Below are positions 1,817-10,149 of a stretch of 64,000 nucleotides of DNA, piece by piece. Within the stretch, counting starts at the first letter, position 1. Every line of letters begins with the position of its first letter. The notes beneath the pieces were generated by a model, which did no database searches, was not told the origin of the DNA, and saw only the letters and a list, made by a program, of their open reading frames with translations. This stretch comes from Candidatus Poribacteria bacterium (GTDB taxonomy: Bacteria > Poribacteria > WGA-4E > WGA-3G), in NCBI GenBank assembly GCA_026702755.1, contig JAPPBX010000036.1, positions 1-64,000 of the forward strand. Reading direction: 5' to 3'. Made by a program: the position numbers and the translations under genes.

Positions 1817-2028
1817 GTATAGTACATAAATAGTTTGAGGGTATTTTTGAATAAAAATATTTCATAGAAGAAACCCCCTAAATCCCTCTTATCAGGGGAC
1901 TTACAATATACTTGATAAAAAAGGTTCTTTAGGGACAAGCATACTGATATTTATGAGACAGGTTCCAGAAATTACATAAAGTCTCCGCCAGCAAAGTGTT
2001 TATAGCACCAGAGGAAAAGGTGAGAAGT

Positions 2029-5000
2029 GTGAAAAAAGAGAGAAAGAGAATCGGACGTGCCAGCGGCGTGTCCGAAAACCATACTGCCGATACAATAGGA
2101 CGAAGGTTAGTAGTAACACTCCTTGTCCTGAGCCTACTCGCGCCTTGTGTTGGGTGGGCGCAAGGTTTTGGTTTTGGTAAAAACAAAATTACAGGGCAAC
2201 GCTTCGATTGGCACATCCACCGGACGGAACATTTTGACATCCACTACTACCCAAGCGAAGCGAAACTTGTGCCCATTATGGCTGCCATTGCTGAAGAGGC
2301 TTATGAGCAACACAGCGAGGATTTCGAGCATGAGTTGCAAGACAGAACACCCCTCATTCTTTACAAATCCCACAAGGATTTCCAAGAAACCAACATAATT
2401 CTCCAAGAACTTCACGAGGGGATCGGCGGGTTCGCAGAACTCTTTAAGCACCGTATCGTTATACCGTTCACCGGCTCCCTTGAAGCGTTTCGAGAGGTAA
2501 TTTACCACGAACTCATTCATATCTTCCAATATGACATTATCTATCAGAAACCGCATGCGCGCATCTATAGTGGCGAATTTCTCTATTCCCCGCCAATTTG
2601 GTTTATAGAGGGAATGGCGGACCACTTTGCTGAAGACAACGATGCAATCGGGGAGATGGTCATCCGCGATGCCAGCATGAATAATAACATTGTGCCGCTA
2701 CCGCAACTCCACAATTTCAACCGACTTAGCTCACCCTTCGTTGGGTATAAGTTGGGGCAATTAGCGGTCGCATATCTCACAGAGACTTATGGACGTGAGA
2801 AAATCCCTGAGATTTTGCAAGGGTTACGACAGAGCCGTACAAAGGACATCAACCGTGTTTTTACGGAAGTGCTCGGTGTAGAACTCAAAGAATTTGATAA
2901 GGCGTGGCGGCAGACAGTCAAAAAACGGTACTGGCCCCTCATTGAAGATAGGGAACTTCCAGACCTTGTCGCGAAGAACCTTACCGAAAAATCGCGATAC
3001 TCTCATAATATCAAACCCGTCTGGTCGCCGAGCGGCGATATTATCGCGTATGTCACAGGAAATGAAGGGTTTCTGGAGATTGTCCTGATGTCCGCGAAAA
3101 CGGGTGAGCGTATCGAACGGGTCACTAAGCGGTTTTTCCGTGAGAAATACGAGGAGATCCGCACCGATTTCAGTGGTTTCGGGAGAAGTCTCGCGTGGGC
3201 ACCTGACGGCGACAGGATCGCCTTCGTCGCCAGACATCACGATGCTAATTATCTCCTTGAAGTCAATATTTTGACTGAGGAATTGACGCAGTATTTTGAA
3301 CTCAACTTCGATAACGTCTCCTCCCCGGATTACGATGGCAGCGGTGAACGGATCGTCTTTTCCGCACTAAAAGAGGGTCAAACAGATCTTTACATAATCG
3401 AACTGCTAACGGGCGAAGTGGACAGGCTCACCTTCGACCTATTCAACGATACGCATCCATCGTGGCATCCGACAACTGGCGAAATTATCTACGCCTCCGA
3501 ACGAGGCGCGAAAAATAGACTCGTACTGATAAACCTCAACAGCGGTACAGAACGCGTGCTGACCGACGGCACCTATAATGCCATCAGCCCAAGTTGGACA
3601 CCAGACGGAAAATCAATTCTCTTCTGCTCCGATAGCCAAGGTATTTACGATATACACAAACTCGAAATTAGTCGTCAGTTGTCAGTTAGCAGTAGCCAGT
3701 TAAGTAACAGTAGTCAGTTAAGAAAGGGTTCAGTTAAATCAGATAACTATTCCTCTGATAGCCTTGACCAAGAACGCGTCTACAGATATTTTTCACAAGG
3801 CACGCGTTCTTGGTCAAAGCCAACGGTCTCCGACAGCCACAGCAACGAAGAAGTCATCTCAACTGAAGACAGCGACACGGAATCTACGGGTTCCCCACCT
3901 TTAGAAGTTGAACTAACCCGTCTTACCAATATCATGACAGGCTGTTTCAATCCGAGTTTGTCTCCAGACGGGAAACATCTCCTGTTTAGTGCCTACCAAA
4001 ACGGGAAATACGATGTTTGTGTGATGGAGATTGGCAAAACTGTTGCGGAAAAAATTGAGGCTCCACCCGTGGCGGAACCCTCTGTAATCTTAACAGAGGA
4101 AGAAGAGGAGAATTATAGGATCGCCAAGCGAAAATACAGCACAAAATCCTCCTTCGCCTTAGATGCGATCTTCCCAGATTTCAGTTTCGGAGCGGATGGT
4201 ATTCTGAGAAGCACGGTGCAAATCGTCGGTAGTGACATGTTAGGTAACCATCGCATCGGGGTCAGTGTGATGAACCAATCGAGTTACCTCGCCCCCGACT
4301 TTATCGCACAATACGGATTTTTAACACACCGGACCGACATCGGCGCGGTGATTTACAACTATCACGAATACCACATCTTGGGCGGCATACAGAGAAGACG
4401 AGGGATTCTACAGCGAATTACCGGACTCGGTGCGTTCGTGAATTATCCGTTTGACAGATACCATCGACTTGACCTCAATTTTTCGATGTACACAAAGCCG
4501 TTCTCTTTCAACTTCCAAACAAGCGAACCTTTGGATCCTTATGATGATAGAGGTCTACTGACAACGGGGTCCATCGCGTTTGTTGGAGATACAACGATGT
4601 GGCGGGAGTGGGCACCCTATACCGGTTCACGCTACCGGATCGAACTTGAGCAATCTTTCCCAGCACTCGGTAGTGAACTTTCGCTCACAAACGTTATTTT
4701 CGACGCACGACGGTATTTCGGACTTGGCAGACGTCCTACGATTGCAGCACGGTTGTTACTCGGTGGTAGTTTCGGTAGAGACAAATCTTACTTTTATCTG
4801 GGTGGTATTGATACACTACGCGGCTATAATTATGAAGAATTAGTTGGAACGCGCATCGGAATCCTCAACTTGGAAGTCCGTGTTCCGTTCATAGATGTGC
4901 TGCATTTCGGATGGCCCATCCAATGGACACTCGGCGGGATACGTGGGATCGCCTTCGCGGACGTAGGAGGTGCCTGGTCAGATTGGCAATATGGACCGGA

Positions 5001-5190
5001 AAATCCTTTCAAGATATTCGCCCGAGAAGAAAATCGTATTCGACTCGCCGATGTCAAAGCCTCAATCGGTGCTGGACTTCGATTACAACTCGGGTTGTTT
5101 TCGATAGATTTCGCTGCAGCGTGGCATACAGACCTCTCTCGAATAGTACCCGGTATGAAATATCATCTCGGACTCGGGCAATCTTTTTAA
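2029..5190 (+). CDS. Peptidase MA-like / TolB propeller / Omp85 barrel fusion
   Basis: The product is about 1053 aa. GTG at 2029 is chosen because AAGGTGAG (2016-2023) precedes it; a GTG at 1996 is also open. A signal peptide ends near CVGWAQG. A gluzincin domain follows, with HELIH (H160, E161, H164) and a likely third ligand E194 in IEGMADHF. Next come WD40/TolB-type propeller blades with PSWTPDGK-like motifs. The C-terminal 350 residues resemble an Omp85/BamA barrel: YLGGIDTLRGYN, then strands ending in a terminal Phe (GLGQSF). The blades are interrupted at about residues 548-620 by a low-complexity insertion derived from repeats. It is probably an outer-membrane protein with a periplasmic protease-like part; activity is inferred. 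Confidence 0.85.
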   Translation: MKKERKRIGRASGVSENHTADTIGRRLVVTLLVLSLLAPCVGWAQGFGFGKNKITGQRFDWHIHRTEHFDIHYYPSEAKLVPIMAAIAEEAYEQHSEDFEHELQDRTPLILYKSHKDFQETNIILQELHEGIGGFAELFKHRIVIPFTGSLEAFREVIYHELIHIFQYDIIYQKPHARIYSGEFLYSPPIWFIEGMADHFAEDNDAIGEMVIRDASMNNNIVPLPQLHNFNRLSSPFVGYKLGQLAVAYLTETYGREKIPEILQGLRQSRTKDINRVFTEVLGVELKEFDKAWRQTVKKRYWPLIEDRELPDLVAKNLTEKSRYSHNIKPVWSPSGDIIAYVTGNEGFLEIVLMSAKTGERIERVTKRFFREKYEEIRTDFSGFGRSLAWAPDGDRIAFVARHHDANYLLEVNILTEELTQYFELNFDNVSSPDYDGSGERIVFSALKEGQTDLYIIELLTGEVDRLTFDLFNDTHPSWHPTTGEIIYASERGAKNRLVLINLNSGTERVLTDGTYNAISPSWTPDGKSILFCSDSQGIYDIHKLEISRQLSVSSSQLSNSSQLRKGSVKSDNYSSDSLDQERVYRYFSQGTRSWSKPTVSDSHSNEEVISTEDSDTESTGSPPLEVELTRLTNIMTGCFNPSLSPDGKHLLFSAYQNGKYDVCVMEIGKTVAEKIEAPPVAEPSVILTEEEEENYRIAKRKYSTKSSFALDAIFPDFSFGADGILRSTVQIVGSDMLGNHRIGVSVMNQSSYLAPDFIAQYGFLTHRTDIGAVIYNYHEYHILGGIQRRRGILQRITGLGAFVNYPFDRYHRLDLNFSMYTKPFSFNFQTSEPLDPYDDRGLLTTGSIAFVGDTTMWREWAPYTGSRYRIELEQSFPALGSELSLTNVIFDARRYFGLGRRPTIAARLLLGGSFGRDKSYFYLGGIDTLRGYNYEELVGTRIGILNLEVRVPFIDVLHFGWPIQWTLGGIRGIAFADVGGAWSDWQYGPENPFKIFAREENRIRLADVKASIGAGLRLQLGLFSIDFAAAWHTDLSRIVPGMKYHLGLGQSF
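3671..3736 (+). repeat. CAGTTAGCAGT-type heptad repeats inside a gene
   Basis: Irregular copies of TCAGTTAGCAG and AGTAGTCAGTTA follow one another and are translated as a Ser/Gln/Leu-rich stretch within the fusion gene. The same kind of sequence occurs in intergenic clusters at about 8.45, 9.03, 34.7 and 41.6 kb. Confidence 0.6.
3764..3817. repeat. Palindromic element, copy 1 (within a coding sequence)
   Basis: Perfect 16-bp arms TTGACCAAGAACGCGT (3764-3779) and ACGCGTTCTTGGTCAA (3802-3817) flank a 22-nt centre. It is translated in frame as DQERVYRYFSQGTRSWSK between propeller blades of the fusion protein. A near-identical copy lies between genes at 8921-8975. Confidence 0.85.
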
Positions 5191-8450: not shown

Positions 8451-8581
8451 AGCCGTCAGCAGTCAGCCGTCGGTTGTCAGTTAAAGAGGTATTTAAAGTT
8501 CACCAGACACCTCTTCTACTGACTGCTGATGGCTGACGACTGATAACTGAAAGGTTTGTATAGCAAACCGTACTGACGGCT
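8451..8581. repeat. Inverted heptad-repeat element upstream of the UGA gene
   Basis: The ends are perfect 9-bp inverted copies, AGCCGTCAG (8451-8459) and CTGACGGCT (8573-8581). Inside are CAGTCAGC-type repeats on the left, their approximate complement on the right, and a 7-bp stem AAGAGGT/ACCTCTT (8484-8490, 8509-8515). It ends 5 nt before the Shine-Dalgarno sequence of the next gene. Confidence 0.65.
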
Positions 8582-8600
8582 ATTAAAGGAGGTGAAACAG

Positions 8601-8846
8601 ATGGCTCTCGATTGGAAACCGCGTCACCGAGATATGATTATCGGGGATATCCCATGGTTAGCCAGAATCAGCGATAAAGCCAATGCAAAACTGCAGGGTA
8701 TTCTCGGTGAGTACATCTACCCGTGACCGCAAGATAAAATGTTCCTGGAGGAACATGAGATAAGTGCTGAGGAATTCACTGAGATGGTGAAAAATAACCC
8801 CTCAGACGATGAGATGATTGCGGCAATGAAGAAATTGAACGGTTAG
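8601..8846 (+). CDS. DUF5069-like protein with in-frame UGA (candidate selenoprotein)
   Basis: ATG at 8601 follows a near-perfect Shine-Dalgarno sequence, AAGGAGGTGA (8586-8595). Reading through TGA at 8724-8726 as one residue gives 81 aa ending at TAG 8844-8846; codon 42 is the TGA. Both halves are in the same frame and look like one small domain: IPWLARISDKANAKLQGILGEYIYP, then the TGA, then PQDKMFLEEHEISAEEF and an acidic helix. From memory, DUF5069 proteins have a Y-x-C-P-x-D motif exactly here, so the TGA replaces the cysteine. A 7-bp hairpin with UGGA loop starts 12 nt after the TGA, as bacterial SECIS elements do. Alternatives are a recent nonsense mutation or a sequencing error. No selenocysteine machinery is encoded in this window. 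Confidence 0.7.
8739..8756 (+). promoter_or_regulatory. SECIS-like hairpin
   Basis: ATGTTCC (8739-8745) pairs perfectly with GGAACAT (8750-8756) around the loop TGGA, with a G at the second loop position. It starts 12 nt and its loop starts 19 nt after the in-frame TGA. This matches the known geometry of bacterial SECIS elements, which sit inside the coding sequence and bind SelB. Confidence 0.6.
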
Positions 8847-8920
8847 TTTAATAGTTTTAACCATCAACTCGCCTCCGTTATAAATGTTAAAGCACGAGTT
8901 GATGGTTAAGGTTATCGGTT

Positions 8921-8975
8921 TTGACCAAGAACGCGTCTACAGATATTTTTCACTAAGGCACGCGTTCTTGGTCAA
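8921..8975. repeat. Palindromic element, copy 2 (intergenic)
   Basis: The same 16-bp arms as 3764-3817 lie at 8921-8936 and 8960-8975, with a 23-nt centre that differs from copy 1 by a short indel (CACTAAGGC versus CACAAGGC). The stem extends by one more T-A pair here. Confidence 0.85.
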
Positions 8976-9026
8976 AGTCCAGAGCGTTCTGTGGTTGTTA
9001 CAAACGTTTGCAACGACCCCACGAGT

Positions 9027-9059
9027 AACTGACAGCCGACAGCTGACAGCTGATAGCCA
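9027..9059. repeat. Heptad repeats before pheA
   Basis: A run of CTGACAGCCGACAGCTGACAG-type units lies just upstream of pheA. It is the same repeat class as at 8451-8581. Confidence 0.55.
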
Positions 9060-9081
9060 CGCTAAGGAAAATTAGAAAGAA

Positions 9082-10149
9082 TTGGACTTAACAAAGTACC
9101 GAGACCAGATTAATGAGATTGACGACCAAATTTTAGCACTGCTACAGAAACGAGCTGAAATTTCCAAGCAGGTCGGTGAGCTAAAAGCAGAAACAGGCGT
9201 TGCACAGGTCTATGTTCCGCATCGGCAGAAACAGATTATTGAACGCTTGAAGGCGCAGAATCACGGCGAGTTTCCTGAAGCTGCGCTTGAGACAATCTGG
9301 ACCGAGATTCTATCTGCATCCCGTTCCTTACAGGATCCGGAGCGGGTCGCCTTCCTCGGTCCTGTCGGCAGTTTCGGACACTTAGCGGCACTATCTCATT
9401 TCGGTACGTCAACTGAAATGATCCCGATCAGTCCGCAGATTGACATTTTTACAGAGGTTGAATCTGGTAGAGCGGACTACGGTGTGGTGGCTATTGAAAA
9501 TTCAGCCCAAGGCACTGTTCGTGATGTTTTGGAACGCTTCCAACGCACGCCGTTGTGGATTTGTGCAGAGACATTTCAACCGATAAAACAGCATCTTTTA
9601 TCAAAGTCCCCGCTCACGGAAATTCGGTGTGTCTACTCACATCCGCAACCCTTCGCGCAATGTAAGATATGGCTAAAGCGACATCTCAGTAATGCTGAAC
9701 AGATTGAGGTTGTTAGTACATCTGAGGCGGCACAACGCGCTGCACAAGAACCGTCAGCTGCTGCTATTGCGAGTGAACTCGCAGGCAAAATCTATGAGGT
9801 TCCAATCGTCGCCAACACTATTATGGATGAACCTGATAACACAACTCGCTTCTTTATCATCGGAAGACACATGCCGGATCCAAGTGGACACGATCGGACT
9901 TCAATGTTCTTCTCAATTCGGGACAAGATTGGTGCCCTGCACGAAGCCCTCGGCATCCTAAAGAAAGCGGAGCTGAATTTGAGTTATTTAGAATCTTTGC
10001 CATCGCGAGCCAAACCGTGGGAGTATGTCTTTTTTGGTGAGATGGAAGGTCATATCGCCGACGAACGCGTCATCAACGCACTTGAGCAGCTTGAAGAATT
10101 GTGTCGCAATGTCAACGTTCTCGGATCTTATCCGCGCGGGACTTGTTAA
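9082..10149 (+). CDS. pheA: Chorismate mutase / prephenate dehydratase (P-protein)
   Basis: This bifunctional 355-aa enzyme converts chorismate to prephenate and then phenylpyruvate in phenylalanine synthesis. An AroQ-type helical mutase domain occupies about residues 1-85 (INEIDDQILALLQKRAEI). The prephenate dehydratase domain follows, with VAFLGPVGSFGHLAA, ENSAQGTVRDVL and the TTRFFIIGR motif carrying the catalytic TRF. An ACT domain (about 270-350) has GALHEAL and YLESLPSR, equivalent to the GALV and ESRP phenylalanine-binding motifs, so feedback inhibition is likely. TTG at 9082 is the start because an in-frame TAG lies at 9073-9075. The stop overlaps the queG start by one base. Confidence 0.95.
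   Translation: MDLTKYRDQINEIDDQILALLQKRAEISKQVGELKAETGVAQVYVPHRQKQIIERLKAQNHGEFPEAALETIWTEILSASRSLQDPERVAFLGPVGSFGHLAALSHFGTSTEMIPISPQIDIFTEVESGRADYGVVAIENSAQGTVRDVLERFQRTPLWICAETFQPIKQHLLSKSPLTEIRCVYSHPQPFAQCKIWLKRHLSNAEQIEVVSTSEAAQRAAQEPSAAAIASELAGKIYEVPIVANTIMDEPDNTTRFFIIGRHMPDPSGHDRTSMFFSIRDKIGALHEALGILKKAELNLSYLESLPSRAKPWEYVFFGEMEGHIADERVINALEQLEELCRNVNVLGSYPRGTC

Follow-up and report, generated by a model that had tools for sequence, protein, structure and literature searches.

A predicted selenoprotein gene of the DUF5069 family in Candidatus Poribacteria, with selenocysteine and cysteine forms among its orthologues

The gene, its in-frame TGA codon and the downstream hairpin

The stretch of DNA analysed here (the window) comprises 64,000 nucleotides of contig C36 in a 5.84-Mb draft metagenome-assembled genome of Candidatus Poribacteria (G000), and the gene in question lies on its forward strand at 8601-8846, where an ATG opens an 81-codon frame that is interrupted once, by a TGA at codon 42 (8724-8726), and closed by a TAG stop codon at 8844-8846. 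The ATG at 8601 is preceded by a Shine-Dalgarno sequence, AAAGGAGGTGA, read from the sequence as the AAGGAGGTGA stretch at 8588-8597 (forward strand) and kept in nearly all Poribacteria orthologues, with the AGGAGGTG form retained by essentially all of them. Downstream of the TGA, a hairpin at 8739-8756 (forward strand) consists of a perfect 7-bp stem, ATGTTCC/GGAACAT (8739-8745/8750-8756), and an apical TGGA loop (8746-8749); it begins 12 nt after the TGA, which places the loop 19 nt from that codon. An earlier sequence-only reading of the window had proposed this layout of Shine-Dalgarno sequence, start codon, 81 codons, in-frame TGA and hairpin as a candidate gene for a selenoprotein, with the TGA decoded as selenocysteine (Sec), and each element was found where it had been placed. 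The comparisons described below indicate that 8601-8846 is very probably a true selenoprotein gene, predicted to the standard that is used for predicted selenoproteins.

When the TGA is read as a residue, the translated product matches the Pfam family PF16798 (DUF5069) with 52.4 bits (E 8e-14) over residues 7-78, above the gathering cut-off of 27 bits, and the match spans the TGA. The family assignment in the sequence-only reading was thus borne out. That reading had also taken the two sides of the TGA as one small domain; the profile match crosses the codon, and both sides are under purifying selection. Only profile positions 4-75 of 133 are covered, and the protein is a short family form and not a full-length DUF5069 domain. 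Sec42 lies in the motif Y-P-U-P-x-D, and the earlier statement that DUF5069 proteins carry cysteine (Cys) at this position agrees with the structure 3OMD, in which the Cys of YNCPLDQ is aligned with Sec42.

Codon 42 and the hairpin among orthologues

A first scan of contigs gave 76 loci, of which 72 carried TGA at codon 42 and four carried TGT or TGC; genome searches supplied the rest of a set of 109 distinct orthologous loci after the removal of duplicates, in which codon 42 is TGA in 89, Cys in 20 and no other residue in any. This is the alternation between UGA and Cys that the sequence-only reading had named as a check. It applies to the short orthologue group and not to the whole Pfam family, as distant DUF5069 paralogues have no Cys at this place. 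Because independent assemblies carry the TGA, it cannot be a sequencing error at 8724-8726. Among 85 Poribacteriota genomes, 72 have the TGA form, six have the Cys form (all in one deep family, f7) and seven have neither, two of these seven being 81%-complete drafts from the genus of the window genome. The TGA form occurs in 36 of 64 Latescibacterota genomes, and seven others have a form with no stop, read as Cys in all seven; most of the Latescibacterota genomes with this gene have the Sec form. The Limnochordia-type relatives, found in five of the 398 genomes sampled from that phylum and at two loci from the first scan, are all of the Cys type. At least three exchanges between Sec and Cys are required on the tree, which is built from a short alignment and has many open forks. 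One gene copy (L072) comes from an Alphaproteobacteria bin but closely resembles the copies of Latescibacterota and has Latescibacterota-like neighbours; as no clear tRNA-Sec is present in the genome of that bin, the contig is probably misbinned.

The reading frame is kept through position 42 in all 20 Cys orthologues. In Poribacteria, the ratio of nonsynonymous to synonymous changes (N/S) among single-base codon differences is 0.14 before the TGA and 0.4 after it, and because the codon differences downstream are mainly synonymous, this part is translated in the same frame.

The hairpin has an invariant core of 12 nt, TTCCTGGAGGAA (8742-8753), which is exact in 86 of the 89 TGA loci, synonymous sites included. 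The three TGA loci with a variant core (L136, L138 and L143) retain the TGGA loop, with pairing maintained by U-G, and L136 alone among them has no closing pair. Codons 48-51 (TTC CTG GAG GAA) show zero change at any codon position in the Poribacteria loci, in which third positions on either side of these codons average about 1.0 bit of entropy; Phe48, for example, is TTC in 73 of 73 loci, in contrast to Phe59 (TTC in 37, TTT in 36). The three outer stem pairs co-vary, with 44 cells changed on both sides and a covariation score of 0.292, compared with a mean of 0.084 after shuffling (0 of 500 shuffles as high) and at most 0.162 for slid controls. Among the 16 Cys loci that were read as DNA (15 distinct sequences), not one has the core, and pairing at the stem is found in only 62% of cells in these 15 sequences. 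The hairpin is therefore kept beside UGA and lost beside Cys, as had been expected of a Sec insertion sequence (SECIS).

The bacterial SECIS (bSECIS) model allows a loop of 3-9 nt with a G in its first two positions, a stem of 4-16 bp, a distance of 16-37 nt from UGA to loop and a minimum free energy of no more than -7.5 kcal/mol (PMC13188914). The window hairpin, with 7 bp, a UGGA loop, 19 nt and -8.0 kcal/mol over 41 nt, fits this model; the sequence-only reading had already likened its geometry to that of a bacterial SECIS. A search of 8501-9100 against Rfam gave no real match, and the pattern of TGA followed by TTCCTGGAGGAA had no match in viral contigs. Two loci depart from the common arrangement. 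In the Cys form L121 (1579-1611, minus strand), the stem is intact (CGCTTCC/GGAAGTG) and the loop is changed from TGGA to TACA, a relic SECIS that likely reflects a recent change from Sec to Cys. In L115 (1000-1240, genome G016), a 3-nt insertion between the TGA and the hairpin shifts the core, which is kept, by one codon, and a new compensated outer stem (GTA/TAC) is formed, giving a natural spacing variant. An internal restart after the GGAGG within the hairpin was considered and rejected: the ATG at 8755 is out of frame, reaches a stop after only two codons and is not conserved among relatives.

Decoding, possible role and rival readings

All four genes for Sec decoding, for which the sequence-only reading had advised a search, are present in G000: selA (523 bits), selB (351 bits), the tRNA-Sec gene selC (78.1 bits), with selB lying about 120 bp before it on contig C86, and selD (356 bits; L098, 1399-2442, minus strand, contig C96), which is itself a selenoprotein gene with an in-frame TGA at the classic CAGU place. 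Of the 72 Poribacteriota genomes with the TGA form, 64 have a tRNA-Sec above the cut-off, and among the other eight drafts selB is above the cut-off and full or nearly full in four (G050, G062, G078 and G036). The Latescibacterota carriers have tRNA-Sec genes of 65-72 bits, and one weak tRNA-Sec (47 bits) occurs in the Alphaproteobacteria-labelled bin that contains L072. Carriers of the Cys form can be Sec users too (G089, G092, G099 and G006). In the proposed mechanism, ribosomes would start at the ATG at 8601, and SelB, attached to the SECIS hairpin that begins within the coding sequence 12 nt beyond UGA codon 42, would deliver Sec-tRNA(Sec) at that codon, yielding a single 81-residue DUF5069 protein with one Sec in Y-P-U-P-x-D. 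This mode of action, SelB-dependent insertion of Sec, is already known.

Several observations weigh against this interpretation. Four TGA-bearing drafts (G061, G030, G033 and G024; 73-83% complete) have neither a tRNA-Sec above the cut-off nor a full selB, the outermost pair of the hairpin fails to form in 24 of 50 sequences, the bare 18-nt hairpin reaches only -6.9 kcal/mol, and the fold over 60 nt has a z-score of -1.1, by which folding energy alone is unremarkable. The folding energy in longer context is not exceptional; the support for the hairpin comes from conservation and covariation and not from energy.

The AlphaFold model of the protein (predicted local distance difference test 78, predicted template modelling score 0.65) is mainly helical, with helices at residues 20-32, 43-51, 56-65 and 69-80, and Sec42 is placed directly before the helix 43-51. 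This four-helix model is not a thioredoxin fold, and the protein has no CxxU or UxxC motif. The single selenol is probably a one-chalcogen redox centre or nucleophile because the protein usually lacks any other Cys, a second Cys being absent from 78 of the 89 Sec forms. It may act as a mono-Sec peroxide or disulfide reductase, as an electrophile binder or as a metal binder. The Sec form of DUF5069 is best read as a redox protein of mainly helical, non-thioredoxin type, in which the selenol stands before a helix and a second thiol is usually missing. The selenol would be reduced by a partner in trans, for which the candidate in Latescibacterota is a ferredoxin-reductase-like flavoprotein (PF00175) encoded directly downstream in most Latescibacterota-type loci (for example, L065, 5251-6138). 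A gene for this flavoprotein also adjoins the Cys form L068; none was found adjoining the DUF5069 gene in Poribacteria, which counts against the proposed role. The more specific proposal of a helical, non-thioredoxin enzyme that has a single selenol and its own chemistry and is reduced in trans by this flavoprotein is offered only tentatively, and is on balance doubtful. If true, it would represent a new structural class of selenoenzyme and would also assign a function to the Cys-type DUF5069 proteins, which are widespread.

The protein may also be a selenoprotein whose Sec has a structural role or binds a metal or ligand, without taking part in redox catalysis. This is unlikely, with an appreciable chance of being right. 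In its favour, DUF5069 is a domain without known function, there is no CxxU or UxxC motif and no thioredoxin fold, and the Sec is alone, with no second thiol, in the 78 loci mentioned above. Against this, the exchange of Sec with Cys and the place before a helix suit a nucleophilic selenolate, and a redox role is presumed for the majority of uncharacterised selenoproteins (PMC13188914).

Decoding of the UGA without selenium, either through genome-wide reassignment or through near-cognate readthrough, is very improbable. A single TGA within the frame and a stem-loop after it might, in principle, constitute an element for programmed readthrough, but codon 42 exchanges with Cys only, the selA, selB, selC and selD genes are all in the genome, and the hairpin both conforms to the SelB-type model and disappears where the codon specifies Cys; TGA is, moreover, a real stop in this lineage, as the family members L051 and L052 end in TGA. 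Still less credible, and refuted by comparison among the loci, is a true stop at codon 42, by which the locus would consist of a 41-residue peptide and a decayed remnant, or of an assembly error. Translation with table 11 does give an open reading frame of 44 amino acids that terminates at the TGA, but the identical TGA recurs in 89 loci from independent assemblies, codons 52-77 are conserved as protein with the mostly synonymous change noted above (N/S 0.4), and 20 of 20 Cys orthologues run on through the position. The remaining reading, equally remote, in which the hairpin is an intrinsic terminator of the minus strand, where a terminator-like pattern is predicted at 8756-8739, or an ordinary coding hairpin unrelated to recoding, is at odds with a T tail that is not kept (AAA, AAG, CAG, GAG and other codons occur there), a minus strand without a gene, an invariant TGGA loop and a core that is present only beside TGA.

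Known relatives, novelty and gene neighbourhood

The predicted selenoprotein shares with known bSECIS selenoproteins (PMC13188914) an in-frame UGA, a SECIS-type hairpin in the coding region, the exchange of Sec with Cys and the presence of the Sec machinery. It differs from them in having neither a thioredoxin fold nor a CxxU or UxxC motif, and DUF5069 (PF16798) is absent from the 119 families in the most recent selenoprotein inventory, of 2026 (PMC13188914). No model in NCBIfam 20.0, which includes models for many named selenoproteins, matched the window protein, and no paper was found that names DUF5069 or joins selenoproteins with Poribacteria, subscription papers and preprints being outside the search. 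The sequence-only reading likewise knew of no described selenoprotein in this family. DUF5069 is therefore, as far as could be tested, a new selenoprotein family, with GOS_A (PMC2398784), which is unnamed and has no accession, outside the comparison. It would add one family to about 119 known ones, occurs in most Poribacteriota genomes and is of a type that would be divided or missed by standard gene callers. Its fold differs from the thioredoxin fold of most characterised selenoproteins. The Sec, which replaces the Cys found in relatives, identifies the residue of DUF5069 that serves catalysis or binding, and the residue to test in this domain is thus now known.

The sole match of the model in a Foldseek search against the PDB was 3OMD, an uncharacterised DUF5069 structure from Leptospirillum rubarum, with a template modelling score of 0.82 over the query length; the same structure was matched by profile (E 9e-15). 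The two are alike in sequence and fold, but the window protein differs from 3OMD and from DUF5069 at large in its length of 81 residues, in its partial profile match and in its Sec instead of Cys. Genome G000 also encodes two DUF5069 paralogues, one of 428 amino acids with three domains and one of 146 amino acids (L103 and L104; G000:C79 and G000:C110), which have the Pfam domain in common with the window protein but, unlike it, are free of in-frame stop codons and have residues other than Cys at the Sec position (YGESSGLDQ and similar). Long DUF5069 reading frames of this paralogue type occur in many Poribacteriota and Latescibacterota genomes.

The gene order is kept in Poribacteria, with UPF0182 upstream and pheA and queG downstream (59, 53 and 46 of 62 loci, respectively). 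The neighbours in Latescibacterota differ from these and include, directly upstream, a conserved protein of about 345 amino acids without a Pfam match; the comparison of neighbourhoods between the two phyla gave no function common to both. In the window, a 56-nt palindromic repeat (TTGACCAAGAACGCGTCTACAGATATTTTTCAC..AAGGCACGCGTTCTTGGTCAAAG) is present in nearly identical copies at 3764-3819 and 8921-8977, the latter 75 nt after the selenoprotein gene and the former inside the gene for an Omp85/PD40 protein (1996-5190), where it is translated (QERVYRYFS..RSWSK). Short repeats of the TGACTGCTGA/GTCAGCAGTCAGCC type are found on both flanks of the gene (8455-8550 and 9027-9058), and their placement suggests an insertion of small mobile or palindromic elements into each of the two intergenic spaces.
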